Of a stretch of 24,897 bases of DNA, positions 3,939 to 23,909 are shown one piece after another. The stretch's first letter is position 1; every line of letters begins with the position of its first letter. Position numbers and translations under genes: made by a program. Below the pieces are notes generated by a model, which was not told the origin of the DNA, made no database searches, and was given only the letters and a program-made list of their open reading frames with translations. This stretch comes from a virus, in the IMG/VR virus record IMGVR_UViG_3300027508_000048, positions 1 to 24,897 of that record; one strand, written 5' to 3'.

Positions 3939-4393
3939 TGGGATGGTATAGTAGAGTATCAAGAGATATCTCTCAAATTCCGGAAGCAATACAATACTTT
4001 CAAGACGAACTTGTGTCAGCTCGTAACGAAGTACAAATTAGCGGCAGTATTGAAAAAGCTGCCGCTAATATGCCTGGTATCGTAGAACACCGATTTAATC
4101 AACTGCAAGAGTTAGAAGCTATTCTCGAGTATTTGAACATTGAATTACGTAGATTGCGCAGCAGCTTTTTTAAGAAATATCTTGAAAATTATCAACGTGC
4201 ATTAAGCAGTCGCGATGTTGAAAAATATGTAGACGGCGAAGCAGATGTAGTCGACTATGAAAAAATTATTAATGAATTTGCATTAGTGCGCAATAAATGG
4301 CTAGGCGTTCTTAAAGCATTAGATCAAAAACAATGGCAATTAACCAACATCGTAAAGTTACGAGTTGCCGGTATGGAGGACGCTTCGATATGA
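3938..4393 (+). CDS. uvsY: UvsY recombination mediator
   Basis: The protein has 151 residues (T4 UvsY 137). It is mostly helical and basic in the middle, with the characteristic stretch ELRRLRSSFFKKYLENYQRAL followed by SSRDVEKYVDGE and a C-terminal helix LVRNKWLGVLKALDQKQWQLTNIVKLR, which is where T4 UvsY forms its hexamer. It promotes gp32 displacement and nucleates UvsX filaments. The start overlaps the previous stop by one base, and its own TGA overlaps the ATG of the next gene (ATGA at 4390-4393). That overlap ties the first glycan gene translationally to the recombination operon. Confidence 0.92.
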   Translation: MGWYSRVSRDISQIPEAIQYFQDELVSARNEVQISGSIEKAAANMPGIVEHRFNQLQELEAILEYLNIELRRLRSSFFKKYLENYQRALSSRDVEKYVDGEADVVDYEKIINEFALVRNKWLGVLKALDQKQWQLTNIVKLRVAGMEDASI

Positions 4394-5010
4394 AAAAAGT
4401 TTACGACTATTGGATGCCAGACACTGACAGCCATTTTGAAAGACTGATTGCCAAGCGTGTTAAAAACGGTGGACCTCCTGAATACCAAGATGATGTTAGA
4501 GACGAAGCATATAAGTATGTAACTGATTTTAATATAGTAGTTGATGTGGGCGCCAATGTTGGATTATGGTCAAAACCTTTAACAAAAGTGTTTAATCACG
4601 TTATTGCATTTGAGCCATTGGAGCAAGTATATAGTTGTTTAGAGCGTAATGTTGAAGGGTTAAACATTGAAATACATAAACATGCGCTGGGCAACATAAC
4701 CAATAAAGTAGAAATGATTTATGATGCCGAAAACACTGGTAGTAGTTATGTTAGCGAAACAGGCTACGGATCTATCGACATAAAACGTTTAGATGACTTG
4801 AATTTACCCAAGTTTGGACTTCTTAAAATTGATTGTGAACGATACGAATTAGAAGTATTAAAAGGTGGCATCGAAACTATTTTAAAATACAAGCCTATAA
4901 TTATTGTTGAACAACATCCTGATACAGAATACTGCGCAGGTACTTATTTAAAAACTCAAGGTGCAAAAGAAATTACCAATATCAGAAAAGACTATATTTT
5001 TGGCTGGTAA
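4390..5010 (+). CDS. FkbM-type SAM-dependent methyltransferase
   Basis: The protein has 206 residues from the ATG at 4390. An upstream in-frame ATG exists at 4333, but GGAGGA at 4375-4380 and the ATGA overlap with uvsY decide for 4390. The SAM-binding motif I is VDVGANVGLWS (51-61), with the acidic residue of motif II in AFEP (73-76). The FkbM signature appears as LKIDCERYELEVLKGG (145-160), close to the usual LKIDvEGfE. Family members O-methylate sugars or polyketide hydroxyls, so in this setting sugar O-methylation of a surface glycan is likely. It is the first gene of the first glycan island. Confidence 0.88.
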   Translation: MKKVYDYWMPDTDSHFERLIAKRVKNGGPPEYQDDVRDEAYKYVTDFNIVVDVGANVGLWSKPLTKVFNHVIAFEPLEQVYSCLERNVEGLNIEIHKHALGNITNKVEMIYDAENTGSSYVSETGYGSIDIKRLDDLNLPKFGLLKIDCERYELEVLKGGIETILKYKPIIIVEQHPDTEYCAGTYLKTQGAKEITNIRKDYIFGW

Positions 5011-5025
5011 TTATTAAATAACTTT

Positions 5026-5796
5026 ATGAAAACAATAGTATTAGTAACCGGAGGATTTGATCCTATCCACAGCGGACATATTGCTTATTTTAACGAAGCT
5101 AAAAAGCTCGGCGATGAACTATGGGTAGGTGTAAACAGTGACAGCTGGCTTGTTAACAAAAAAGGCAGACCGTTTATGCCATTTGAAGAACGAGCAAACA
5201 TCGTGAGTAATCTAAAGGTAGTAGACTTGGTTTTATCTTTTGATGATGACGAACTAGGTAGTAGTAATAAATGCATCGAGTATATCTTAGATTCTAATCC
5301 TAACGCAAAAATTATTGTTGCCAACGGCGGTGATCGCAATGCTGGAAATATACCAGAATTTATCAAATACGGAACTCACCCAAGAGTTAAATTTGCCTGG
5401 GAAGTCGGCGGCAATGATAAGAAGAATTCAAGCAGTTGGATTTTAAAAAACTGGGAAAAACCAGAGACTGAAAGATCTTGGGGATCTTACAAAGTACTTG
5501 ATAGCAACGGCGAATGGCAAGTAAAAGAGCTGAGTTTTCAAAAAGGAAAAGCATTAAGCGATCAACGACATTTTAAAAGATCCGAACACTGGCATGTTGT
5601 TAGCGGAGTAATTGTAATGGTACTTGAAGACAGACAGGGTAGAAAGACTCAACAGACACTAATACCAGGAGACAGTATAGACATACCGACTGCATACTGG
5701 CACAAGGCTATAAATATCGGAAACGAAACTGCCAAAGTAATTGAAGTGTGGCTGGGCAAAGAATTAACGGAGAATGACATTGAGCGACGAGATTAA
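5026..5796 (+). CDS. Fusion: cytidylyltransferase plus mannose-6-P isomerase-like cupin
   Basis: The protein has 256 residues in two parts. Residues 1-140 are a nucleotidyltransferase of the TagD/RfaE-C type: GGFDPIHSGHIAYF (9-22) with the HxGH motif H15-H18, then VNSDSWLVNKKGRPFMPFEER and a KKNSSSWI segment corresponding to the ISSS/T motif. Residues about 149-256 are a cupin like the C-terminal domain of type II phosphomannose isomerases: ERSWGSYKVLD, Q180, H182, E187, H188 (RSEHWHVVSG), GDSIDIPTAYWHKAINIG with H226, and IEVWLGKELTENDIERRD. The first half would make a CDP-activated sugar or alcohol; the cupin may isomerise or epimerise a related sugar phosphate. There is no clear Shine-Dalgarno; TTAAATAA lies just upstream. 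The ORF overlaps the next gene by 23 bases. Confidence 0.88.
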   Translation: MKTIVLVTGGFDPIHSGHIAYFNEAKKLGDELWVGVNSDSWLVNKKGRPFMPFEERANIVSNLKVVDLVLSFDDDELGSSNKCIEYILDSNPNAKIIVANGGDRNAGNIPEFIKYGTHPRVKFAWEVGGNDKKNSSSWILKNWEKPETERSWGSYKVLDSNGEWQVKELSFQKGKALSDQRHFKRSEHWHVVSGVIVMVLEDRQGRKTQQTLIPGDSIDIPTAYWHKAINIGNETAKVIEVWLGKELTENDIERRD

Positions 5797-6520
5797 ACCA
5801 TTAAAGATCTATATCGGATGGGATAGTAGAGAAGACATTGCATATCAAATTGCAAAGTTAAGTATCGAACAACACGCTTCTGTACCAGTCGAGATCGTTC
5901 CAATAGAACAAAACAAACTTAGAAAACAAGGCATTTACACTCGTCCAGTTGATAAACTTGCAAGCACAGAGTTTACGTTCACAAGATTTCTTATTCCATA
6001 TCTTAATAACTACACCGGTTGGGCGCTGTTTATAGATTGCGACTTTTTAGCAGTTGCTGATATAAAAGAGTTGTTTGATCAGATTGACGACAAGTATGCT
6101 ATTATGTGTGCCCAACATAATTATATACCAACAGAAGTTACCAAAATGGACGGGCAGCGACAAACGTTGTATCCAAGAAAAAACTGGTCAAGTATGATGT
6201 TAATCAACTGCGAACATCCTAGTAACAAACTATTAACACCTACACTTATTAATAACGAGGCAAAGACGGGTGCGTATTTTCACAGATTTAGTTGGGTTCA
6301 CGACAAACATATAGGTAAGATCAGTCACGAATGGAATTGGCTAGTAGGATGGTACACCGAACCCAAAGATGGTAAGCCGAAACTTATTCATTACACCGAA
6401 GGCGGACCTTGGTTTGATGATTACAAAAGTTGCGAATACTCAAGTGATTGGTATCAAGTTGAAAGAACATACTTACAAAATAATTTAGAAGTTCAAAAAA
6501 AAACCTCACAAGAGAATTAG
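5774..6520 (+). CDS. DxD glycosyltransferase (GT-A type, GT8-like)
   Basis: The protein has 248 residues in this frame. It opens with KIYIGWDSREDIAYQIAKLSI, typical of phage GT-A glycosyltransferases, has a DxD motif in LFIDCDFL (D88, D90), and ends with the region HEWNWLVGWY then IHYTEGGPWFDDYKSCEYSSDWY. It transfers a sugar from a nucleotide-sugar, with metal bound by DxD. The start is ambiguous: the ATG at 5774 sits directly against CGGAG (5768-5772), whereas the TTG at 5780, two codons on, has better spacing. The frame reaches a stop at 6520 shortly after an A9 tract (6495-6503). In the -1 frame the coding sequence continues without a stop into the next gene, so the natural product may be longer. 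Confidence 0.85.
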   Translation: MTLSDEIKPLKIYIGWDSREDIAYQIAKLSIEQHASVPVEIVPIEQNKLRKQGIYTRPVDKLASTEFTFTRFLIPYLNNYTGWALFIDCDFLAVADIKELFDQIDDKYAIMCAQHNYIPTEVTKMDGQRQTLYPRKNWSSMMLINCEHPSNKLLTPTLINNEAKTGAYFHRFSWVHDKHIGKISHEWNWLVGWYTEPKDGKPKLIHYTEGGPWFDDYKSCEYSSDWYQVERTYLQNNLEVQKKTSQEN

Positions 6521-13272: not shown

Positions 13273-13629
13273 ATGTCAATAAGAGCAGGAAAAGTTTGGG
13301 GTACTACAGATTTTATTTTTGGAAACGGTGCATTAGAGTTTCATCGCATTGCATTTAATGCAGGATACAAATGCAGCGAGCACTATCACAAGTACAAATG
13401 GAACGGATTTTATGTAGAACACGGAAAGATGTTAATTCGTGTTTGGCAAGATGAGGATCAAAACGGATTAGTTGACGAAACAATTCTTCACGGTGGACAA
13501 TTTGCAATGGTCAAGCCAGGCAAGGTACATCAGTTTGAAGGACTTGAAGATGGCGTAGCATTTGAACTTTACTGGGCTGAATTTAATCATGACGATATCG
13601 TTAGAAGGTCAATTGGTAGTAAGACATGA
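13273..13629 (+). CDS. Small cupin, sugar-isomerase-like
   Basis: The protein has 118 residues with a strong RBS, AAGGAG, at 13260-13265. It is a single-domain cupin: metal ligands H37 and H39 in SEHYHKYKWNGFYVEHGK, and H86 in VKPGKVHQFEG, with the usual Gly-rich turns. It resembles small D-lyxose/mannose-6-phosphate isomerase-like or dTDP-sugar-modifying cupins. Placed directly before a glycosyltransferase (ATGA overlap at 13626-13629) and an epimerase, a role in making a nucleotide-sugar is likely, but the substrate is not visible from the sequence. Confidence 0.8.
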   Translation: MSIRAGKVWGTTDFIFGNGALEFHRIAFNAGYKCSEHYHKYKWNGFYVEHGKMLIRVWQDEDQNGLVDETILHGGQFAMVKPGKVHQFEGLEDGVAFELYWAEFNHDDIVRRSIGSKT

Positions 13630-14372
13630 GTACAACACTAATAACAACCTTTAGCGATACTGGTTACAATACATATGCAAAATATTTTTTAGATAGTTTA
13701 GTAGAACACATTGACGACAATGTTAAAGTTGTAATTTATACTGATAGTCCTAAATTTGAACCAAACGGAAACTGGTTCAACTTAAATCTTGCAGAACATG
13801 CACCGGGTCTTTTAGAATTTAAAAAACGTAATAGTCATCGTGTTGTTCCTGAAGGTACAAAAGGTTTTCTAAAAGACGCAATAAGATTCAGTCATAAAAG
13901 TTACTGCATAGTACATGCTGCTAGAAACTGTACAACGGATCAATTGATTTGGTTAGATGCTGACACTGAAATTATCAAACCGTTAACAGAAAAATACTTG
14001 CGCAGTCATTTACCAGCAGGTAAGTTTGTAAGCTATCTAGGACGCCCTGACAGATACACCGAAACAGGATGGTTAAGTTTTGATATGACAAACCCTTATC
14101 AAAAAGAGTTTTTTGATTTGTGGGAGTGGTATTACAGCACAGACGAAATCTATAATCTGTCAGCACAATTAGACTGTCATGTGTTTGATGCTTGTCGAGA
14201 AAAATTAGAAGCTGAAGGAAAAATAGTAGGCGAAAACATAAGTCCTAAAGATCTAAACAAAGCACACTTTGATACAAGATTTGCTGGATACATGTGCCAC
14301 TACAAAGGCGACAGAAAAGAAAACAGAAATCAGTTTTTTGCAAAAGCATTGGCAAGGAAAACTAAAAAATGA
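13626..14372 (+). CDS. DxD glycosyltransferase, paralogue of the inverted gene
   Basis: The protein has 248 residues. A DxD motif lies in LIWLDADTEI (D111, D113), with SYLGR (136-140), GWLSFDM and a C-terminal HYKGDRK. These three blocks are shared in order with the minus-strand gene ending at 8374. The N-terminus (TTLITTFSDTGYNTYAKYFLDSL) suits a GT-A Rossmann-like domain. It probably transfers a sugar onto the glycan made by this island. It is coupled by ATGA overlaps to the cupin before it and to the epimerase after it. Confidence 0.85.
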   Translation: MSTTLITTFSDTGYNTYAKYFLDSLVEHIDDNVKVVIYTDSPKFEPNGNWFNLNLAEHAPGLLEFKKRNSHRVVPEGTKGFLKDAIRFSHKSYCIVHAARNCTTDQLIWLDADTEIIKPLTEKYLRSHLPAGKFVSYLGRPDRYTETGWLSFDMTNPYQKEFFDLWEWYYSTDEIYNLSAQLDCHVFDACREKLEAEGKIVGENISPKDLNKAHFDTRFAGYMCHYKGDRKENRNQFFAKALARKTKK

Positions 14373-15232
14373 AAATCGTGCTAACTGGACACAACGGATT
14401 CATTGGCAGTCATTATTTAGAATATGCAAACAATGATCCTGACGTTTCGGTTATAAAAACGTTTGATAAGCGGTCTGGTGAAGATTTATGCAACCCTAGG
14501 GTTGCATACAACAGTCCTGATTGTGACGTACTAATACACATGGCTGCAACAAACGGAACACGATTGTTTTATGAACAACCTACAGAGGTTGCAACAAATA
14601 ATACTCTACCGACATTTAATCTAGTACATAGATACCAGAACACAGATACTAAAATTGTGTTTACAAGCACTTGTGAAATTTTTAATGGAACAATAGATGC
14701 CGGTTACTATCCAGTTCCTACTGACGAGCAAGTGCCTGTTATGTTTAATGACATTACAAATCCACGATGGAGTTATAGCATTCCAAAAGCACTAGGAGAA
14801 AACTTGATTGCCAACTGCGGTGCACCGTGGTTGATCATACGGTATTTTAACATATATGGACCGAGACAGCACGATCATTTTATCAGTGAGTTTGTAGATA
14901 GAGTCAAGAATGGCGAGTATTACATCAAAGGCGATGATACTAGAAGTTTTTGTTATATTGATGACGCAATTACTATGACACATAATCTTATAAAAAATCA
15001 TAGTGGACACATTGTCAACGTTGGCAGACAAGAAGAAATAAAAATAAGTACAGTAGCAAAAGTTATTATGAAGTTAATGGATGTTGATCCTACCCGACTT
15101 GAAATAATGGATGCACCCAAAGGCAGTGCAAAACGTAGATGTCCTGACACTACACTAGTAAAACAATTAACAGGATTCAACAATTATACTCCTTTGGAAA
15201 TTGGTTTAAAGAAAACAATAGAAAGTTTATAA
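14369..15232 (+). CDS. NAD-dependent nucleotide-sugar epimerase/dehydratase
   Basis: The protein has 287 residues and is an extended short-chain dehydrogenase. The NAD-binding motif is GHNGFIG (7-13). The catalytic set is S100/T101 in VFTSTCEIFNG and Y136xxxK140 in WSYSIPKALGE. Substrate-domain signatures are IRYFNIYGPRQ, DTRSFCYIDDAI and RRCPDTTLVKQLTGF. The closest resemblance is to UDP-glucose 4-epimerase and UDP-glucuronate decarboxylase. The next gene encodes a UDP-glucose 6-dehydrogenase, so the pair could convert UDP-glucose to UDP-glucuronate and on to UDP-xylose or an epimer. The exact product cannot be decided from motifs alone. Its stop overlaps the next start (TAATG). Confidence 0.88.
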   Translation: MKIVLTGHNGFIGSHYLEYANNDPDVSVIKTFDKRSGEDLCNPRVAYNSPDCDVLIHMAATNGTRLFYEQPTEVATNNTLPTFNLVHRYQNTDTKIVFTSTCEIFNGTIDAGYYPVPTDEQVPVMFNDITNPRWSYSIPKALGENLIANCGAPWLIIRYFNIYGPRQHDHFISEFVDRVKNGEYYIKGDDTRSFCYIDDAITMTHNLIKNHSGHIVNVGRQEEIKISTVAKVIMKLMDVDPTRLEIMDAPKGSAKRRCPDTTLVKQLTGFNNYTPLEIGLKKTIESL

Positions 15233-16026
15233 TGAGAATAGGTATAGTAGGACTAGGTGCAGTTGGCACAGCAAACAAGCAAGGGTTTGAACATTTAAAC
15301 CACGAAGTAATCGGACATGACATCAAGCATAATACAAAAATACAAGATGTTATAAACAGCGAAATTGTATTTGTTTGTGTTCCTACTCCGCAGTCTGCAG
15401 ATGGCAGTTGCGATACAAGCATAATCGAAAGTGTAATTGCAGAACTCGGCACCCACGAGTATAAAGGTATTATTGCAATACGCAGCACAGTTGAGCCAGG
15501 ATTTACACAGCACATGATAGACAAATTTAAAAGTTTGACTATTTGCTTTGTTCCAGAGTTTTTAAGAGAACGTTGTGCAACAGATGATTTTATTCATAAT
15601 CACAAACTACTTGCAGTAGGCACACACGACATTTGGGTATATAGAAAAGTTGTTCGGGCGCACGGAGACTTACCTCAGCATACAGAACACTTAACTCCTA
15701 GTGAAGCAGAAGTGCTAAAATATTACAACAACGTATATGCAGCATTGCGTGTTACGTTTGCCAATGTAATGTATGAAATATGTGATAAATTAAATTGTGA
15801 TTATACAACTATCAAAAATGCTTATATTAAAACCGGAAAAGCAACAGACATGTATTTAGATGTAAATCCAAGTTTGCGAGGGTACGGTGGCATGTGTTTA
15901 CCTAAAGATACACAAGCTATAGCTGCATTGCTAGATAAACTAGAGCTTGACTTTGATCTGATCAAAAGTATAAATCACGACAACAGCAAGTTAAAAAGAA
16001 CAGTGTTCAATGGTATGAGAGAATGA
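15232..16026 (+). CDS. UDP-glucose 6-dehydrogenase-like, short form
   Basis: The protein has 264 residues, against about 390-450 for the bacterial family. It has the N-terminal Rossmann motif GLGAVG (7-12), VCVPTP (48-53), RSTVEPGFT (84-92), FVPEFLRE (106-113), the central helix with K163YYNN, and the catalytic cysteine C222 in GGMCLPKDT. It ends soon after INHDNS, so the C-terminal UDP-binding domain is absent. Known family members oxidise UDP-glucose (or UDP-ManNAc and similar) in two NAD+ steps to a uronic acid. The missing domain means substrate binding must be completed another way, for instance by a dimer partner. It overlaps both neighbours by 1-4 bases. Confidence 0.88.
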   Translation: MRIGIVGLGAVGTANKQGFEHLNHEVIGHDIKHNTKIQDVINSEIVFVCVPTPQSADGSCDTSIIESVIAELGTHEYKGIIAIRSTVEPGFTQHMIDKFKSLTICFVPEFLRERCATDDFIHNHKLLAVGTHDIWVYRKVVRAHGDLPQHTEHLTPSEAEVLKYYNNVYAALRVTFANVMYEICDKLNCDYTTIKNAYIKTGKATDMYLDVNPSLRGYGGMCLPKDTQAIAALLDKLELDFDLIKSINHDNSKLKRTVFNGMRE

Positions 16027-16622
16027 AAAAAAATCCTTTACGTGGAAAGTCCGAAGCACAAGCAGGACAAGATTTATTTGCATTAGAAGTTTGCAAAAAT
16101 AAAACCTATATTGAAATCGGCGGCAGTCATCCGAGACGCATCAATAACACATTCAATCTAGATTCCAATCACGGATGGAAAGGATTTAGTATTGAACTAA
16201 ACGACAAGTGGAACAATGCATGGGACACATCATCAAGAAACAATCCTTGTTATTTTAAAAACGCACTTACATTTGATTACCTTGCAGCAATTCGCGAACA
16301 AGGAATGAATACTAAGGTTGGATATTTGAGCTGTGACATTGAACCGCCTAATAACACATATGCAGCTTTACAGCGTGTAATCAATCAAGGCGTTGAGTTT
16401 GAATGTATTACATTTGAACACGATTGGTATAATTTCCCTGATACAACCTTTAACGAACAAGCAACCGACTTTTTAAAGAAGCACGGATATAAAGTTGCTG
16501 TTAGAGATGTATTTTGTAAAAAGTCTTGGCTACCATACGAAACATGGTACGTTCGTGAAGACATAGTATTCGAAGAACTAGACTTTCAACAATGGCGTGC
16601 AAACAAGGTACAAACTCTATAA
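16023..16622 (+). CDS. FkbM-like methyltransferase
   Basis: The protein has 199 residues. Motif I is a variant, TYIEIGGSHPRRINNTFNL, followed by HGWKGFSIEL, which is the FkbM pattern of a SAM-binding loop and acidic residue. LSCDIEPPNNTYAALQRVI corresponds to the second FkbM signature. The glycine-rich loop is degenerate (GGSHPRR rather than GANxG), so activity is not certain. By analogy it would O-methylate a sugar in the glycan made here; it differs clearly from the first methyltransferase at 4390. ATGA overlap with the dehydrogenase before it and TAATG overlap with the small gene after it. Confidence 0.75.
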   Translation: MKKNPLRGKSEAQAGQDLFALEVCKNKTYIEIGGSHPRRINNTFNLDSNHGWKGFSIELNDKWNNAWDTSSRNNPCYFKNALTFDYLAAIREQGMNTKVGYLSCDIEPPNNTYAALQRVINQGVEFECITFEHDWYNFPDTTFNEQATDFLKKHGYKVAVRDVFCKKSWLPYETWYVREDIVFEELDFQQWRANKVQTL

Positions 16623-16906
16623 TGTTAATAGACCGTCCCGATTTAGTTGAATTGATTGGTGAGTCATTGATATATGAACAAGCCAACAGTGTAACATATG
16701 CACGTTTTAGAGATGAACCGAAAAAAAGTTTATATGCAGGACGTTGGATAATCGGTGGTAGTGCTGAAGAAATTGCTATAGCACAAGGTTATTTGAGTTA
16801 TGATAGTTGGAAAGAATTATTCAGTTTAGCAGACAAAAATCCTACTCTTAGAAAACAACTTGACAAAACTCTTGACATATATTATCTTATAAAAAATGGA
16901 AAATAA
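16622..16906 (+). CDS. Small unknown protein before kdsA
   Basis: The protein has 94 residues starting MLIDRPDLVELIG at 16622, chosen because the ATG overlaps the preceding stop (TAATG). An upstream in-frame ATG at 16592 would need a 31-base overlap. The content is mostly helical and charged (EEIAIAQGYLSYDSWKELFSLADKNPTLRKQLDKTLDIYYLI). No motif is recognised. Its position inside the glycan operon, directly before the Kdo genes, suggests a link to glycan synthesis, but no function can be assigned. Confidence 0.7.
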   Translation: MLIDRPDLVELIGESLIYEQANSVTYARFRDEPKKSLYAGRWIIGGSAEEIAIAQGYLSYDSWKELFSLADKNPTLRKQLDKTLDIYYLIKNGK

Positions 16907-16907
16907 A

Positions 16908-17687
16908 ATGAAAATTATAGCAGGACCTTGTCAGCACGAGAGCTTGGAGCAAAGTAAAGAAATTGCACTCGAGTGCAAGCGTGTTTGCGATCAGTATGGA
17001 TTTGAATATTATTTCAAAGCATCATTTGACAAAGCTAATCGTACAAGCATCAATGGCAAACGTGGAGTAGGGCTGTCTTCAACTATACACGATTTCCGTG
17101 TACTAAAGGAAGAACTAGGATTAAAAATTCTAACAGACGTTCACGATCAAAACCACGTGTTTCATGTTAAGGATGTAGTAGATGTGATACAGATACCAGC
17201 ATTTTTGTGCAGGCAAACTGATCTTATTATAGCAGCGTGTAATACAGGAAAAATTGTCAATATTAAAAAAGGACAGTTTCTTGCACCATGGGACGTAGCT
17301 GGAATACTAAGTAAGTGTACAGATGCTAAAGAAATATGGATAACCGAAAGGGGAACTAGCTTTGGATATAATACCTTGGTTGTTGATTTCACCGGCCTTA
17401 ATTATATGCTCGATAATTTTGATGTACCTATTGTTTTCGACGCCACGCACAGTGTACAAAAGCCAGGCGGCCGTGGAACTAGTAGCGATGGCAATCGTTC
17501 TTATGTCCCTGGCTTGGCTCGTGCAGCTAGTGCTTTAGGAATTAAAAATTTCTTTTTAGAAGTTCATCCTGATCCAGATAATGCACCTAGCGACGGACCA
17601 AACATGTTGCATTTAAAAGACTTTGAAGATGTTGTAAAACAAATTAAAGTAATCGGTGATGCAGCAAGGGGGTATACTTGGTTATGA
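16908..17687 (+). CDS. kdsA: 3-deoxy-D-manno-octulosonate 8-phosphate synthase
   Basis: The protein has 259 residues from MKIIAGPC at 16908, preferred over the ATG at 16896 because GGAAA lies a few bases upstream. It condenses phosphoenolpyruvate with arabinose 5-phosphate to Kdo-8-phosphate, the first committed step to Kdo. Signature blocks are all present: AGPCQHES, KASFDKANRTS, LTDVHD, QIPAFLCRQTDL, IKKGQFLAPWD, TERGTSFGYN, FDATHSVQKPGG, and EVHPDPDNAPSDGPNML. C8, H181, E218 and D229 match the metal ligands of the metal-dependent class (C11, H185, E222, D233 in the Aquifex enzyme); Asn replaces Cys in the E. coli class. The stop overlaps the kdsB start (ATGA). Confidence 0.95.
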   Translation: MKIIAGPCQHESLEQSKEIALECKRVCDQYGFEYYFKASFDKANRTSINGKRGVGLSSTIHDFRVLKEELGLKILTDVHDQNHVFHVKDVVDVIQIPAFLCRQTDLIIAACNTGKIVNIKKGQFLAPWDVAGILSKCTDAKEIWITERGTSFGYNTLVVDFTGLNYMLDNFDVPIVFDATHSVQKPGGRGTSSDGNRSYVPGLARAASALGIKNFFLEVHPDPDNAPSDGPNMLHLKDFEDVVKQIKVIGDAARGYTWL

Positions 17688-18355
17688 CTACAGCTATTCT
17701 TATACCAGCAAGATTTAGTAGTTCTCGATTTCCGGCTAAAATGCTTGCTGGGTTGAACGGAGTACCTCTTGTTCGGCACGTATATGATAAGTGCAAAGCA
17801 ACAGGATTAGATACCTACGTGTTAACCGATGAGCGTCGAATTGCACATCAAATACCTTACAGTGATGTAATTTTTACAAATGATGCAGAAAATGGTACAG
17901 ACCGTTGTATGCAGGTTATTGATAGAGACTTGCAATACGATCGTTACATAAATGTTCAAGGCGACATGCCCGACATTACTACAGAAATTATACGTGCTGT
18001 CGAATCGCAGTTGCAACACAGCGATGTATCAACTGCATATACTACAATGGATTTTAACTTGCGAAATGATCCAAACACTGTTAAAATGATACACACTAGA
18101 GGAAGAGCTCATTGGTTTTGTAGAGCAAGTCTTATGTATGGTGATCATCACTTGGGTGTTTATGGATACAACAGAGAAGCAAAAGTTATGTATAAAAATA
18201 GTACCAAATTTCCAGAAGAAGACATCGAAGCTCTTGAACAACTACGTTGGATACAAAACGGTATTAAGGTTGGTGTAGTAGAGGTTGACTTCAACGGAAT
18301 CGAAATTAACACTCCTGAAGACCTAATCGCGTGGCATCATAAAAATGGCAAATAA
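17684..18355 (+). CDS. kdsB: CMP-Kdo synthetase (3-deoxy-manno-octulosonate cytidylyltransferase)
   Basis: The protein has 223 residues from the ATG at 17684, which overlaps the kdsA stop. A TTG at 17678 is open in frame, but AAGGGGG at 17666-17672 and the ATGA overlap favour 17684. It activates Kdo with CTP to CMP-Kdo. Motifs: IPARFSSSRFPAKML (7-21), NGTDRC (70-75), INVQGDMPDI (89-98), LGVYGYNRE, LEQLRWIQNG and IEINTPEDL. The usual VQGDEP is VQGDMP here, an unusual change near the nucleotide site. It is slightly shorter than bacterial KdsB (about 245-250). Together with kdsA it could supply CMP-Kdo, though a Kdo-8-phosphate phosphatase is not seen in the window. Confidence 0.92.
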   Translation: MTTAILIPARFSSSRFPAKMLAGLNGVPLVRHVYDKCKATGLDTYVLTDERRIAHQIPYSDVIFTNDAENGTDRCMQVIDRDLQYDRYINVQGDMPDITTEIIRAVESQLQHSDVSTAYTTMDFNLRNDPNTVKMIHTRGRAHWFCRASLMYGDHHLGVYGYNREAKVMYKNSTKFPEEDIEALEQLRWIQNGIKVGVVEVDFNGIEINTPEDLIAWHHKNGK

Positions 18356-18809
18356 ACATATCGATCTATTTAAAGAAATGATGCCAGCAATTGATCACGG
18401 TGCAAAGTCTGCATGGGACGAAGCAAACGACGACGAGCGTAAAGAAATCAAAGGCGACTTGTGGAATCTAAATAGATACATTAGTAGTGTAAACGGCGAT
18501 CGTAGAAAACAAGAAATGCTGTTATACAAAGTAAACTTGCTTTATAACAAGGACTGGGCTACACTTTCGTCACATCCTAAGCTACAGTGGATGCTACTTT
18601 GTATAGCAGGAAAAACTGGAAAAAAAGAATTCCATCCATGGATTAAACTTGAGCGTAAAAAAGACACAAGCAATAAAGCTATAAAATTTTTACTAGAAAT
18701 ATATCCAACAATGAAATATGATGAGGCCGAACTACTTGCTAGAATATCTACAAAAAAAGAACTTAAACAACTTGCCGAAGAACACGGGTACGACAAGGTT
18801 GACTTCTAA
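18345..18809 (+). CDS. 62: Probable sliding-clamp loader small subunit (gp62-like)
   Basis: The protein has 154 residues, mostly helical. The pattern DLFKEMMPAIDHG, then NLNRYISSVNGD, then a helical block with FHPWIKLERKK and AIKFLLEIYPTMKYDEAELLARISTKKELKQLAEEHG resembles the short clamp-loader A subunit of marine T4-like phages and, distantly, T4 gp62 (187 residues; compare its GKWAKL and IIKLLAKRYQ region). gp62 joins gp44 to load the gp45 clamp. This is pattern recognition and I could not test it. The start overlaps the kdsB end by 11 bases. It lies away from the usual gp44 and gp45 neighbours. Confidence 0.6.
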   Translation: MANKHIDLFKEMMPAIDHGAKSAWDEANDDERKEIKGDLWNLNRYISSVNGDRRKQEMLLYKVNLLYNKDWATLSSHPKLQWMLLCIAGKTGKKEFHPWIKLERKKDTSNKAIKFLLEIYPTMKYDEAELLARISTKKELKQLAEEHGYDKVDF

Positions 18810-19482
18810 ATCACATACATGCGAATATTGTAATAAAAGTTTTAGCAAAGAACAGACATTGCTAGTTCACGTCTGTGAACAAAAAAGCAGGCACTTACAA
18901 AAAAACGAGAAACGTGTACAACTTGGGTTTTATGCGTTTCAACGCTTTTATAAGTTAAGCACTGGGCACAAGACTGAAAAGACTTACAGCGAGTTTGCTA
19001 GATCGTCGCTGTACAATGCGTTTGTTAAGTTCGGTAGCTTTGTTAACAATGTAAGACCGCTGTATCCTGACAAGTACATTGACTATGTAGTAACCAGCGG
19101 TGTTAAACTCGATCATTGGTGCAGAGACGACTTGTATGAAAAATACGCTGTCAATCTTATCAACAAAGAGGGTGTAGAAACTGCACTAGAGAGATCTGTA
19201 AACACAATGGTTGAATGGGCAGAAGAACACAACAGCGTCTGGAATCATTACTTCTTATACGCCAGTATAAACCGAATTACATGGGACATTAGAGATGGAA
19301 AAATATCTCCGTGGCTAGTTCTTAATTGCAAGTCAGGCAAAGAAGTTTTAGGCAAGCTCAACGATGAACAACTTAACATGTTGACAAATATTTTAAATCC
19401 ACAACACTGGGCACTGAGATTTAATCGTCAACCTAAAGATGTAGAGCTGGTTAAAAACATTGCAAAGGAAGCAAATCTATAA
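18799..19482 (+). CDS. Zinc-finger-like conserved phage protein
   Basis: The frame is open from an ATG at 18718, but that would overlap the previous gene by 92 bases. A TTG at 18799 overlaps it by only 11 and places MTSKSHTCEYC at the N-terminus, which I prefer (227 residues). The N-terminus carries a finger: C-x2-C (CEYCNKSFSKEQTLLVH), with His and Cys 12-14 residues on (LVHVCEQKSRH). A long conserved helical region follows (FYAFQRFYKL, FVKFGSFVNNVRPLYPDKYIDYVV, GVKLDHWCRDDLYEKY, WNHYFLYASINRITWDIRDGKISPWLVLNC). I associate this protein with marine T4-like phages but know no function. It sits between a probable clamp-loader subunit and the DnaE-like protein, so a replication role is possible. 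Confidence 0.78.
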   Translation: MTSKSHTCEYCNKSFSKEQTLLVHVCEQKSRHLQKNEKRVQLGFYAFQRFYKLSTGHKTEKTYSEFARSSLYNAFVKFGSFVNNVRPLYPDKYIDYVVTSGVKLDHWCRDDLYEKYAVNLINKEGVETALERSVNTMVEWAEEHNSVWNHYFLYASINRITWDIRDGKISPWLVLNCKSGKEVLGKLNDEQLNMLTNILNPQHWALRFNRQPKDVELVKNIAKEANL

Positions 19483-20036
19483 TGGATATTGATATTGACT
19501 TTGCAGACAGAACTGCAATTTTATCCAAGCTACAACATCACGTAGCAGCACTCGAAACCGGCAAGAAGCACAACACTGGTATCTATGTTACGCCTGTACC
19601 ACACAATCCAATAGACAACATTGCAACCATTGACTACAAGATTGCTGAGGATAGAGGATACTTTAAGATAGACTTTTTGAACGTTAACATTTACAAAGAT
19701 GTTAACGACGAAGAGCACTTAACTGAGTTATTGAATAAAGAACCGCTGTGGGAATTATTACAGCACAACGAAGTAGTGGATCAGTTGTTTCACGTATCTG
19801 GTCACGGTGATATTTTAAGAATACTAAAGCCAAGTGATGTTGAAGAATTAGCATGTGCGCTGGCAATTATTAGACCAGCAAAAAGATATTTGCTAAACAC
19901 CGGCTGGGAAAAAATTAAAAACGAAGCCTGGACTAAACCCGATGGTAACCAGTATTACTTTAAAAAGGCTCACGCAATTTCTTATGCGTTTGCAGTAATA
20001 GTACATTTAAATTTAATTTGTGAACACGCTATCTAA
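19482..20036 (+). CDS. Miniature DNA polymerase III alpha (DnaE)-like protein
   Basis: The protein has 184 residues, yet it carries, in the same order, several signature blocks of the roughly 1100-residue bacterial replicative polymerase alpha subunit. MDIDIDFADR (1-10) resembles the palm motif P-D-F-D-x-D-F; KKHNTGIYVTPVPHNPI (28-44) resembles the KHAGGVVIAP region; YFKIDFLNVNI (60-70) resembles the KFDFLGL palm motif; FHVSGHGDILRILKPSDVEELACALAIIRPAKR (103-135) resembles the AVFQLES, RLxPxxFEDLIALVALxRPG region; and FKKAHAISYAFA (160-171) resembles the FNKSHAxAYAL region. D4, D6 and D64 align with the three catalytic aspartates. PHP, thumb and most of the fingers are absent. The start overlaps the previous stop by one base. 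Whether it polymerises, regulates or binds a host factor is unknown. Confidence 0.65.
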   Translation: MDIDIDFADRTAILSKLQHHVAALETGKKHNTGIYVTPVPHNPIDNIATIDYKIAEDRGYFKIDFLNVNIYKDVNDEEHLTELLNKEPLWELLQHNEVVDQLFHVSGHGDILRILKPSDVEELACALAIIRPAKRYLLNTGWEKIKNEAWTKPDGNQYYFKKAHAISYAFAVIVHLNLICEHAI

Positions 20037-20397
20037 TTTTTTTTATAAGCTGAACACTTTTACGTTTTACTCTTTTAATTGCTAAGTTGTTAATATTAAC
20101 ACACGGTCCTATTACTAATTTTACATCCTTGCTGTTCATTGTTATCATACAGTAGCGTAACGACTCAATTTCTTTTCTAAGAAAAATGTTGATAGGTATC
20201 ATTCTGTTTGATTCCCACCACCATATTTCTCCTAAATCAACCAACAACCGTTTATGCTCATTATTTTTTAAATTAGTATAAACAAACATTGTTGTAACAT
20301 ATTGATCTTGGTTTGAAATGATTCCGACATATTCGTTGCCGCCATATGCAACAACGCTGATGTAAGGAAACTGAGCTTCTATATCTTTTAATAACAT
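20029..20397 (-). CDS. Conserved phage protein, inverted gene
   Basis: The protein has 122 residues on the minus strand. MLLKDIEAQFPYISVVAYGGNEYVGIISNQD, then MFVYTNL, then DLGEIWWWESNRMIPINIFLRKE and KLVIGPCVNINNLAIKRVKRKS; the C-terminus is very basic (KRVKRKSVQLIKKIR). I recall similar hypothetical proteins in marine T4-like phages, without function. The aromatic WWWESNR cluster followed by a basic tail could contact nucleic acid. It converges on the DnaE-like gene with an 8-base overlap (20029-20036) and diverges from the structural-type gene at 20429, with only 31 bases between them. It is the second of two isolated minus-strand genes. Confidence 0.78.
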   Translation of the reverse strand: MLLKDIEAQFPYISVVAYGGNEYVGIISNQDQYVTTMFVYTNLKNNEHKRLLVDLGEIWWWESNRMIPINIFLRKEIESLRYCMITMNSKDVKLVIGPCVNINNLAIKRVKRKSVQLIKKIR

Positions 20398-20428: not shown

Positions 20429-21217
20429 ATGCAATTAGTACCCAGATATTTAGTCAACGACAGAATAATTGTAGTATCAAATGATGCTGGATTCGTTACG
20501 GAGTTTAGACCAGTGTATAGTAGAACAATAAAAGTTTACAAAGGTATTGATAATACCATACAATTCAGATTATTAAATGCAGATCAAAAACCAGTAACGA
20601 TAGAAGATAGTCCAGTGTTTGTAGCATTTGATGAAAATCAATCAAAGATTATAGAACGATCATGTACAGTCACTGACGACTCTACAACTGAAACTCGCGG
20701 AATGTTTGAAGTTGAAATAACAGAAAACGACTTGCTTAACATACAGCAACAGTATATTTCGTTTAACATTTATCTTGAAGCCACAGATGGACAAAGACAA
20801 GTAACCTATTCAAATAGAAACTTTGATAGTATGGGAATAATTTATATAGATTCTCGATCATATCCAGGACCAAAGTCTGCGCAAGAGCTTGCTTCCTTTG
20901 TAGAAGAAGATGACTATTGGGTAGCTGGCAGTACAGACGCAACCAAAATTACTGCATCACCGGGGTTAAATGGCAACGAAGCGTTGCACACTGTTGCAGT
21001 ATATACAAATGAATTTGTAGGAACTGTTGAAGTACAAGCAACACTAGACAATCAAATTTCCGGACTCAACAATTGGACAACTGTTAGCACATTAACATTT
21101 GACGGCACCGAATCTGAGCCTGTGCCTGCAAACTTTAATGGTGTGTTTACATATTTGCGATTCAAAGCAAGTGCCGATCCTGCTGATAAAATTACCAAAA
21201 TATTAGTTAGAAACTAA
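20429..21217 (+). CDS. Probable virion structural protein
   Basis: The protein has 262 residues. It is strand-rich with no membrane segment. Residues 1-135 (LVPRYLVNDRIIVVSND, YSRTIKVYKGIDNTIQFRLLNADQKPV, FVAFDENQSKIIERS, ISFNIYLEATDGQRQVTYSN) form a beta-domain seen in tail- or baseplate-associated proteins of marine T4-like phages. The C-terminal part (VAVYTNEFVGTVEVQATLDNQISGLNNW, NGVFTYLRFKASADPADKITKILVRN) is a second beta-domain, resembling adhesin- or fibre-attachment-type folds. The late-type promoter directly upstream supports expression with virion genes, in contrast to its replication-gene neighbours. The precise virion location is not known. Confidence 0.75.
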   Translation: MQLVPRYLVNDRIIVVSNDAGFVTEFRPVYSRTIKVYKGIDNTIQFRLLNADQKPVTIEDSPVFVAFDENQSKIIERSCTVTDDSTTETRGMFEVEITENDLLNIQQQYISFNIYLEATDGQRQVTYSNRNFDSMGIIYIDSRSYPGPKSAQELASFVEEDDYWVAGSTDATKITASPGLNGNEALHTVAVYTNEFVGTVEVQATLDNQISGLNNWTTVSTLTFDGTESEPVPANFNGVFTYLRFKASADPADKITKILVRN

Positions 21218-21253: not shown

Positions 21254-22252
21254 ATGAGCATCGTGTCTGATCTTCTGAATGTGTACTTGCCTGCAAAGCG
21301 CAAAACTACCCCAAGCGGTTGGGTGAGTTTTAATGCTCCCTGCTGTGTACACAACGGAGAGAACGTAGACACTAGAGCAAGAGGTGGATTAATCACCGAA
21401 GGCGAAGTTATCAGCTATCACTGTTTCAACTGTGGTTTCAAGGCAAGCTGGCAGCCTGGACGCAACCTAAGTCATAAATTTAAAAAATTATTAGAATGGC
21501 TTAACGCACCTGATAACGAAATTACAAAACTTGCACTAGATGTTATGCGCATCAACGAAGGTGTAGAAGTTCAAAAACATTCTATCGAGATGCCGACGTT
21601 TACAACAGTACCGTTACCGGATGATGCTGTTCGTCTTAGAGACATACCCGACTACAATGAAAACTGTTTAGCGTTTGAACAGTTTTTAAAGGTTGTAGAT
21701 TACATGGGACAACGCAATCTAAAACTTGACGACACAGACTATTATTGGTCTCCTAGTCTTGCTTACAGAGAACGACTTATCATACCTTTCTTCTACGAAA
21801 ATCGTGTTGTTGGTTGGAGCAGTCGTAGTGTAAACCCAGACAAGCAACCGAAGTATCTTACAGAATCACAGCCTGGATTTGTGTATGGGTTAGATGAGCA
21901 ACGCCCTCAAAAAGTGTTTACGTTGGTGTGTGAAGGACCAATTGATGCTATACAAATTGAAGGGTGTGCGTTACTAGGAAGTGAAATAAATGATGCTCAG
22001 GCATTGTTGTTAAATAGGCTAGGCAAAGACATATATGTTGTTCCTGATAGAGACAAAGCCGGTAGCAAGTTAATTGAACAAGCTATTGACCGAGGCTGGG
22101 GTGTTAGTATGCCAGACTGGGATCTTGAAATCAACGACATAAGTGATGCTGTAGCCAAGTACGGAAGACTATATACACTGTATAGCATTGTAAGTGCTGC
22201 TGAAAGCAGCCCATTAAAAATAAGGTTAAAAGCAAAAAGATGGTTTGGATAA
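21254..22252 (+). CDS. 61: DNA primase gp61
   Basis: The protein has 332 residues (T4 gp61 342). An N-terminal zinc-binding domain carries C30/C31, H33, C57 and C60 in APCCVHNGEN and YHCFNCGF. The TOPRIM catalytic domain has VCEGPIDAIQ with E227 and VVPDRDKAG with D265 and D267. The region YRERLIIPFFYENRVVGWSSR is the characteristic primase core strand pair. It lays down RNA primers for lagging-strand synthesis together with the gp41 helicase, encoded 1.8 kb downstream. No Shine-Dalgarno is visible upstream of the ATG. The last 13 bases overlap the 37-residue gene that follows. Confidence 0.93.
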   Translation: MSIVSDLLNVYLPAKRKTTPSGWVSFNAPCCVHNGENVDTRARGGLITEGEVISYHCFNCGFKASWQPGRNLSHKFKKLLEWLNAPDNEITKLALDVMRINEGVEVQKHSIEMPTFTTVPLPDDAVRLRDIPDYNENCLAFEQFLKVVDYMGQRNLKLDDTDYYWSPSLAYRERLIIPFFYENRVVGWSSRSVNPDKQPKYLTESQPGFVYGLDEQRPQKVFTLVCEGPIDAIQIEGCALLGSEINDAQALLLNRLGKDIYVVPDRDKAGSKLIEQAIDRGWGVSMPDWDLEINDISDAVAKYGRLYTLYSIVSAAESSPLKIRLKAKRWFG

Positions 22253-22385: not shown

Positions 22386-23909
22386 ATGATAGTTTGGGGA
22401 ATAAGTGCAAACAGTCATGATGCTGCATTGGCAGTTTTTAAATGTTCGGGTAAAGGCAACGGCACTCGAAAACATTTAAAATTACTGTTTGCAAGTCATG
22501 CTGAACGCTACAGTGGCATTAAGAATGATCCTCATTTAAATGCCGAGTTAATTTCAGAAGCTAAAAAGTATGGAGAACCAGATGAAATTATTTGGTACGA
22601 AAGGCCTTTACTTAAAACTCTTAGACAGTTTAGAGCAGGCCAAGGAATTCGGTTACGTGAAAACAACATTAAACATTACCTTAACTCTTATGGAATACAT
22701 GCTCCTATTAAGTATGTTGATCATCATCATTCCCATGCTGCTGCCGGGTATTATACTAGTCCTTTTAGTGAAGCCTGCATTGTTAGTATCGACAGTATTG
22801 GAGAATTTGCAACTCTTAGTATCTGGCAAGCACGAGCCAATCGACTCGAAAAAGTCTACACACAATCGTACCCGCACTCGGTAGGATTATGGTATTCGGC
22901 ACTCACACAACGAGTTGGATTAAAACCACAAGAAGACGAATACATTCTTATGGGTATGGCAGCATACGGTGACCCAGATAGATTGTATCGCAGTATACAG
23001 GATCACTTTATAGAATTAAACGATCCACAGCAGCACTGGTTGCCCGAGGCGCTGGTACACGTTAATCAAAATTTACATCGGGGGTGCCAGAACTGGCGAC
23101 CTGATCTTGAAACAGAACAGGATTATTTTGATATAGCTGCTGGCGCCCAACGAGTTTATGAAAACATTTTCAATTGGGTGTTGCAATATGCATCCACTGT
23201 TGTTCCTTCTAAGAACCTAGTTCTCACAGGAGGGTGTGCGCTAAACTGTAGTGCCAACGGCATAGCATACAATTATTTCGACAACATATGGATCATGCCC
23301 AATCCGGGCGATGCCGGGTCAGCGATAGGTGCACCTCTTGCACATTATAATCAACACATAAAGTGGCCGGGTCCGTATTTGGGTCACACAATTGAAGGTG
23401 ACTATCCTGTAGAAGAAGCATTGCATGAACTACTTACTACAGGTATTGTTGGTGTTGCTAACGGCGCTGCTGAGTTTGGTCCAAGGGCTCTTGGTAACAG
23501 AAGCCTGCTTGCTGATCCTAGAGGCATTGATATCAAGGACCGAGTTAACAAGATCAAGCGCAGACAAAAGTTTAGACCATTTGCTCCAGCAATACTTGCC
23601 GAGCATGTCAACGACTACTTCCAAGGACCCACAGGCCCTTACATGCAATACACCAGCGTTTGTACAGACCCCAATCTACCAGCAGTTGTTCACGGCGATG
23701 GTACTGCAAGGGTACAAACAGTTTCTGCAAAAGATAACCCAGGATTTAGACGTTTACTGGAACGTTGGTATGAAGAAACCGGTTGCCCTATACTGTTAAA
23801 CACTAGTTTAAATATCAAAGGAAAACCGATAGTTAATACTGAAAAGGATGCTGAAGAGTTTGAAAAGTTGTATGGAGTACGTGTGTGCAAGGCTGCTGCG
23901 AAAAAGTAA
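22386..23909 (+). CDS. NodU/CmcH-family carbamoyltransferase
   Basis: The protein has 507 residues, slightly shorter than the 560-600 usual in the family. The N-terminal ASKHA-fold domain starts WGISANSHDAALAVF (H11), with the metal-binding cluster VDHHHSHAAAGYY (H113-H115, H117) and DSIGEFATLSIW. The C-terminal YrdC/Sua5-like carbamoyl-adenylate domain carries AAEFGPRALGNRSLLADPR (about 361-379), KRRQKFRPFAPAIL and LLNTSLNIKGKPIV. Family members transfer a carbamoyl group from carbamoyl phosphate to a sugar or antibiotic hydroxyl. In this window it is best read as decorating a sugar of the phage- or host-surface glycan. No clear promoter is seen; the gene lies 32 bases after the 37-residue ORF. 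Confidence 0.9.
   Translation: MIVWGISANSHDAALAVFKCSGKGNGTRKHLKLLFASHAERYSGIKNDPHLNAELISEAKKYGEPDEIIWYERPLLKTLRQFRAGQGIRLRENNIKHYLNSYGIHAPIKYVDHHHSHAAAGYYTSPFSEACIVSIDSIGEFATLSIWQARANRLEKVYTQSYPHSVGLWYSALTQRVGLKPQEDEYILMGMAAYGDPDRLYRSIQDHFIELNDPQQHWLPEALVHVNQNLHRGCQNWRPDLETEQDYFDIAAGAQRVYENIFNWVLQYASTVVPSKNLVLTGGCALNCSANGIAYNYFDNIWIMPNPGDAGSAIGAPLAHYNQHIKWPGPYLGHTIEGDYPVEEALHELLTTGIVGVANGAAEFGPRALGNRSLLADPRGIDIKDRVNKIKRRQKFRPFAPAILAEHVNDYFQGPTGPYMQYTSVCTDPNLPAVVHGDGTARVQTVSAKDNPGFRRLLERWYEETGCPILLNTSLNIKGKPIVNTEKDAEEFEKLYGVRVCKAAAKK

Follow-up and report, generated by a model that had tools for sequence, protein, structure and literature searches.

We find that the 184-residue open reading frame lying at 19482-20036 of a viral DNA very probably specifies one chain, the C-terminal subunit, of a minimal C-family (DNA polymerase III alpha-like) DNA polymerase made of two proteins. 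The DNA analysed, here called the window, is a stretch of 24,897 nucleotides that spans positions 1 to 24,897 of IMG/VR virus record IMGVR_UViG_3300027508_000048. The encoded protein is homologous to bacterial DNA polymerase III alpha over the palm and the fingers of that enzyme. It amounts to one half of a palm, and the other half, which carries the GxGRGS motif, is the product of a separate and distant gene in the relatives. The frame begins with an ATG at 19482 and closes with a stop codon at 20034-20036, and its coordinates and translation agree with those of a preliminary description made from the sequence. The features discussed here are collected in Table 1.

Table 1. Features of the window around the polymerase gene. 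Neighbour counts are drawn from 89 loci with 61 distinct proteins, not all independent, and include only the loci with room for the neighbour.
Feature	Position	Strand	Basis
154-residue ORF (phrog_11758), possibly a gp62-like clamp-loader subunit	18345..18809	+	81/85 loci
Zinc-finger protein, upstream (phrog_11058, unknown function); true start perhaps downstream of 18718	18718..19482	+	84/86 loci
Very probable C-terminal subunit of a split minimal Pol III alpha-like polymerase (phrog_11778), 184 residues	19482..20036	+	PHROGs, profile, structure
D2-I3-D4 codons; D2 and D4 correspond to D401 and D403, both catalytic in E. coli DnaE	19485..19493	+	alignment, conservation
D64 codon, equals catalytic D555	19671..19673	+	alignment, conservation
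R131-P132 codons, fingers motif, equals R639-P640	19872..19877	+	alignment, conservation
H164 codon, equals steric gate H760	19971..19973	+	alignment; H in 61/61 distinct homologues
Convergent ORF of unknown function (phrog_11637), 122 residues, abutting the polymerase gene at its 3' end	20029..20397	-	83/85 loci
262-residue ORF, phrog_14467 'virion structural protein'	20429..21217	+	70/73 loci
DNA primase (phrog_47; Toprim_2)	21254..22252	+	62/64 loci

Searches with the single 184-residue sequence are too weak to decide its identity. Pfam DNA_pol3_finger was matched at E 0.13, which is below the cut-off, the NCBIfam search gave no match and phmmer against the PDB returned two matches only, both unrelated. 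The PHROGs family phrog_11778, named 'DNA polymerase', was matched over the whole length of the protein (residues 1-183, E 5.4e-62). When a profile of 57 homologues was compared with 177,635 distinct PDB sequences, seven of the eight matches at E<=1 were Pol III alpha, the best of them at E 0.0036, and the remaining one was unrelated; when the family was aligned by hhalign with the E. coli enzyme only, the probability was 36% and E 0.0004. Both in this profile search and in the alignment with the E. coli enzyme the motif blocks of the protein stand in the order of DnaE, as the preliminary description had reported.

The AlphaFold2 model of the protein (mean pLDDT 92.5, pTM 0.78) leads to the same family. 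With VIA-align the 13 best entries, which are Pol III alpha or are titled only 'DNA polymerase', had Z values of 6.0-9.6, the next entry having 3.7. Residues 1-184 of the model corresponded to E. coli DnaE 401-780 and to Taq 462-837, with an rmsd of 3.6 over 182 residues at the top Z of 9.6, and the identity to E. coli DnaE over the aligned structure was ~17%. The first 14 rows of a Foldseek search of the PDB were also Pol III alpha or 'DNA polymerase', E<=0.001 being reached in two rows only, and the best four rows from a viral structure library (E<=0.001) were one named DNA polymerase and three entries without names. The compressed C-family palm and fingers skeleton that had been suspected from the sequence is therefore recovered by the PDB profile and by VIA-align, and the comparison of a predicted structure with DnaE that had been suggested as a check favours Pol III alpha with both structural programs.

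Relatives of the protein were detected by tblastn in a collection of 50,697 phage records, 76 of which matched at E<=0.01, 63 of them over at least 80% of the 184-residue query. Among the matches listed are PA5oct/Paride, Phosso, Atu_ph07, 121Q/PBECO4, RaK2, GAP32, CBB, XacN1 and SCTP-2, and the extra matches listed at a looser limit were mostly DnaE genes of Streptomyces phages, in which about half of the query was aligned. As the hosts of these phages include enterobacteria, Pseudomonas and Agrobacterium, among others, the earlier label 'marine T4-like' proves too narrow. The candidate stretches in IMG/VR numbered 111, and 107 of them proved to be relatives; among the best 80 of these 107, which were retained, two have 100% identity, followed by relatives at 70%. 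At least five relatives were present among the 584 stretches listed in a scan of bacterial and archaeal genomes; two close ones (61% and 51%), located on metagenome-assembled contigs, are perhaps mis-binned phage, and three distant ones (25-28%) are probably ordinary DnaE.

The catalytic residues can be placed by comparison with the E. coli DnaE stretch P400-D401-F402-D403-V404-D405-F406, of which D401 and D403, together with D555, are named as active-site residues in PMC8485763. With F7 anchored on F406, residues D2, D4, D6 and D64 equal D401, D403, D405 and D555, and the catalytic trio is thus D2, D4 and D64. The preliminary description had aligned D4, D6 and D64 with the palm aspartates; its register was one repeat off. 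D6 is an invariant residue too. Further pairs are K62 with K553, Y168 with Y764 and, by motif, H30 with H511. Residues D2, D4, D6, H30, G33, K62, D64, I130, R131, P132, K134, H164 and Y168 do not vary among the 61 distinct homologues found at 89 loci, the four aspartates being D in every one of them, so that the conservation on which the first reading had been made to depend is indeed found. A set of 58 rows to which Slickus01 was added (A1) keeps the same residues in all rows but L036, which was entered without its N-terminus and has a gap at D2, D4 and D6, and in a set of 57 rows (A3) Y168 is replaced by F in one row. Some of the spacings between these residues are short: F7 and H30 are 23 residues apart as compared to 105 in E. 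coli DnaE, and R131 and H164 are 33 apart as compared to 121, which we take to reflect the loss of the thumb and of most of the fingers.

In 27 close pairs the dN/dS of the C-terminal subunit gene has a median of 0.065 and a highest value of 0.090, the active site being kept under strong purifying selection. These values already contradict the view that the gene is the decaying remnant of a captured DnaE gene that has no present function. Large deletions relative to DnaE would be expected of such a remnant; yet the same boundaries are kept in phages of many hosts and gene order is conserved, and we hold decay to be extremely improbable. It was also suggested at the outset that the protein serves as a decoy for host clamp or tau. 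More generally, a mimic of host DnaE could occupy the clamp, tau or other parts of the replisome, or could complete or poison DnaE itself, an idea to which the homology to the core of the host enzyme lends itself, as does the host takeover that these phages presumably need in general. However, the region matched in E. coli DnaE leaves out the clamp- and tau-binding parts, which we assume to lie outside 401-780, and the phage protein resembles E. coli DnaE little in sequence. A decoy, moreover, has no need of invariant catalytic residues under purifying selection, nor of a second phage gene that provides exactly the missing half. We find no support for a decoy for clamp or tau, and consider a mimic of any kind very improbable.

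The missing half was recognized as a second small gene by Pfam DNA_pol3_alpha (PF07733) in nine of nine named phages and in a 357-kb relative of the window (G001), the match being confined to profile positions 13-101. The three partner proteins scanned all belong to phrog_11127, which also bears the name 'DNA polymerase'. In relatives the partner protein has ~170-185 residues and ends where the 184-residue protein begins; its C-terminal end reads G-x-GRGSS ... EFL[R/K/N], just ahead of the DIDIDF point in the order of DnaE. A profile of the partner gave nine PDB matches at E<=1, all nine of them Pol III alpha, with E. coli residues 320-392 in the tabulated rows. In structure comparison residues 79-173 of the partner model match E. 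coli DnaE 279-393 and the first 78 residues are outside the match, Z reaching 11.9 among C-family rows and 2.3 in the next unrelated row. As the C-terminal subunit covers E. coli 401-780 and the partner 279-393, the two spans adjoin without overlap. The partner model is weak, with a mean pLDDT of 69.5, values <50 over residues 1-36 and averages of 64 and 75 in blocks 131-140 and 141-150; a model of this quality would fit a half-domain, and a thin alignment could be its cause. The G, G, R, G and S of the partner motif do not vary among the 61 distinct sequences obtained at 89 loci, 80 of these loci having been collected with patterns that do not contain the GxGRGS motif.

The two halves occur together. 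Among the listed phage records with the C-terminal subunit 61 of 62 also hold the partner (60 of 62 by tblastn alone), and all 60 listed partner records also hold the C-terminal subunit; these lists include GenBank/RefSeq duplicates, and one further full-length C-terminal-subunit record and 13 weaker partner records are outside the count. The partner of Slickus01 was missed by tblastn and found by profile (E 2.1e-18); it is a 170-residue ORF, and a 98-residue ORF of the same phage was rejected as the partner. The C-terminal subunit stands without a partner, by tblastn or by profile, in PP728206, an unverified record of 109.5 kb that is titled complete and yet has less than one-third the length of the record of RaK2, a phage of the same genus. 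The C-terminal subunit is carried by 13 of the 15 IMG/VR contigs that have the partner, and is absent from the two others, of 146 and 156 kb. A scan for the partner with the Phosso protein as query found nothing. The partner gene was not found in the window or in an identical 51-kb contig (G006), both of which are fragments, and is present in G001, which is 67% identical; we therefore infer that the virus of the window has a partner as well.

In the 10 genomes measured the two genes are 14.7 to 224 kb apart, a distance at which frameshifting or readthrough between the halves is impossible. Joining by an intein was rejected, neither chain having room for one. Since the partner chain ends immediately behind EFL[R/K/N] and the C-terminal subunit begins at DIDIDF or within ~20 residues of it, the chains stay separate. 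We propose that they would assemble non-covalently into one active site of ~360 residues, to which the C-terminal subunit would contribute the metal-binding palm residues D2, D4 and D64 and miniature fingers with the dNTP steric gate H164, while the N-terminal subunit, made from the far-off gene, would complete that palm with its nucleotide-binding GxGRGS part. The assembled enzyme would have no PHP, thumb or C-terminal domains of DnaE. With the thumb and most of the fingers missing, its binding to DNA would have to come from elsewhere or would be poor; partners could provide the grip, and the adjacent zinc-finger protein, a possible accessory protein, is a candidate.

The gene order around the C-terminal subunit is conserved (Table 1), the open frames of the polymerase gene and of the convergent ORF being separated by a median gap of -1 base. 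XacN1 is an exception, with no annotated primase adjoining and an extra ORF before the convergent one. The 154-residue ORF upstream had been described as a probable clamp-loader subunit, which is not upheld by direct comparison of it with T4 gp62, as hhalign fails with a probability of 0.1% and E 0.58. A match to phrog_225 was obtained with one of 25 alignment members of this family (E 0.067), and one member matched phrog_11279 instead, so the PBECO4 row (18% identical) is probably not a homologue. Indirect support comes from a Slickus01 ORF (L200:9953-10381, minus strand) that the family resembles (hhalign 94%, E 1e-7), and which itself overlaps a match to phrog_225, the gp62 family (E 1.3e-4), and adjoins an annotated RFC small subunit. 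Judging by these resemblances, the 154-residue ORF may be a very divergent clamp-loader subunit. The partner gene is separated from the clamp-loader gene by two or three genes in PBECO4, RaK2 and Paride, and in Phosso seven genes lie between the partner and an 'AAA-ATPase'. Two genes downstream of the GxGRGS half (loci L107, L108 and L109) comes a gene that bears the annotation 'head morphogenesis' in PBECO4 and RaK2, and 'Co-chaperonin GroES' in Phosso.

The replication cluster of the window is surrounded and interspersed by genes of sugar or surface-glycan type (4333-6520, 13273-18355 and 22386-23909), among them an FkbM methyltransferase, a GT8 glycosyltransferase, an epimerase, a UDP-glucose/GDP-mannose dehydrogenase and a Nol-like carbamoyltransferase. 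A DAHP-synthase-family protein adjoins a CTP_transf_3 protein there, and we presume that these neighbours are perhaps a KDO pair.

The phages that encode the split enzyme also carry a family-B polymerase, as the preliminary description had expected of them: a match was obtained in 11 of 15 records tested, including all nine named phages, and in Slickus01 too. None was found in the other four of the 15, which are contigs of 51-162 kb, the 51-kb fragment G006 among them. Eight family-B loci were checked, of which five had both motif patterns and the other three one of the two. In Paride (825 and 379 residues), Atu_ph07 (418 and 578) and Slickus01 (578 and 322) the family-B matches extend over two open frames, and going by these frames some of these phages may have a split family-B polymerase too. 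Family-A polymerase gave no match over the cut-off in any of the 15 records. A DnaQ-like exonuclease was considered as a constant partner and rejected, as RNase_T was seen in three of seven records only, over the cut-off in PBECO4 and Paride and weakly in Phosso, with no match in Slickus01, G004, G002 and G006, the last three of which are fragments.

As a family-B polymerase is also present, the split enzyme probably has a limited job beside it, which could be primer extension, synthesis of one strand or repair, and it perhaps acts on the primers of the neighbouring primase. A tentative extension of this proposal, which we consider possible and yet doubtful, is a replisome with two polymerases, in which the family-B enzyme would carry out bulk synthesis and a thumbless, two-chain C-family enzyme, gripped by phage accessory proteins such as the zinc-finger protein, would extend primase primers or make one strand. 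If this were true, the replisome would contain an exceptionally small two-chain C-family polymerase that is not confined to jumbo phages. An alternative is a two-subunit nucleotidyltransferase that has retained the C-family active site and has ceased to copy DNA; the substrates that it would modify could be nucleotides, DNA ends or proteins. The loss of the thumb and of most of the fingers, the presence of a family-B polymerase and a fold of the pol-beta-type nucleotidyltransferases (as described in PMC7824862) would all agree with such an activity, but the dNTP-selecting R131-P132 and H164 are invariant in the 61 distinct homologues and the gene is located in a replication cluster beside a primase. 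On balance we regard a nucleotidyltransferase of this kind as unlikely, and retain the two-protein DNA polymerase as the preferred reading.

Iyer et al. 2021 (Viruses 13:63, PMC7824862) have already described, for 'group 2.2' jumbo phages, a split minimal Pol III alpha, and suggested that the split form is ancestral. The CBB paper (PMC5259590) reports the GxGRGS half only, as a truncated protein, and in the Atu_ph07 paper (PMC6102473) gp316 is given as an alpha subunit. Experiments on the split enzyme were looked for in openly licensed PMC papers, and none was found. The window protein is a new and well-preserved example of the arrangement predicted in print in 2021. Like the family studied here, the system of Iyer and colleagues consists of two proteins from distant genes that comprise only the catalytic nucleotidyltransferase and template-binding core, and its phages, as do the relatives of the window, also carry a family-B polymerase. 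The window sequence differs in being new, its closest non-identical relatives among the best 80 of 107 being those at 70%, and Slickus01, a phage of 141.6 kb that carries both halves, extends the pair below the >200-kb jumbo class.

With bacterial DnaE (E. coli, Taq, M. tuberculosis) and PolC the window protein shares the palm trio D401/D403/D555, R639-P640, the H760 gate and the order of the motifs. E. coli DnaE, however, is one chain of 1160 residues, whereas the phage enzyme is made of two chains of ~184 and 173 residues; in standard DnaE and PolC the GxGRGS motif is part of the same chain, whereas the window protein starts at DIDIDF and the motif is found on another gene in relatives. A chain of 184 residues has no room for the PHP or C-terminal domains, for the thumb or for the greater part of the fingers. 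Unsplit small Pol III alpha proteins of other phages, for example a 547-residue protein in L096/L231 and the DnaE-like proteins of Streptomyces phages, resemble the window protein in having a C-family palm and fingers and in lying in a phage replication region, and differ from its family in that both palm parts are in one chain. The 547-residue protein (L231:16205-17848, equal to L096:1459-3099; contig G004) has both palm parts and fingers and no room for a PHP; it matches PF07733 at 8.2e-41 (247 of 260 positions) and PF17657 at 2.8e-16 over most of the finger model, and is encoded ~7.6 kb downstream of a 70% relative of the window protein on the same contig. The GxGRGS partner half was not found in this contig, a fragment of 144 kb.

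Cyanobacterial DnaE is split over two distant genes and its parts are joined by a split intein. The phage pair is alike in that a DnaE is made from two distant genes, and differs from it in having no intein. To the idea put forward in 2021 our analysis adds the exact boundaries of the halves, the corrected catalytic register, the steric gate, the co-occurrence counts, the selection and the gene context. An active site that is encoded in two chains, the thumb having been deleted, puts the requirements of a C-family enzyme to an extreme test, and as these phages also carry a family-B polymerase, they offer a small system in which to ask why a replicon keeps two unrelated replicases.
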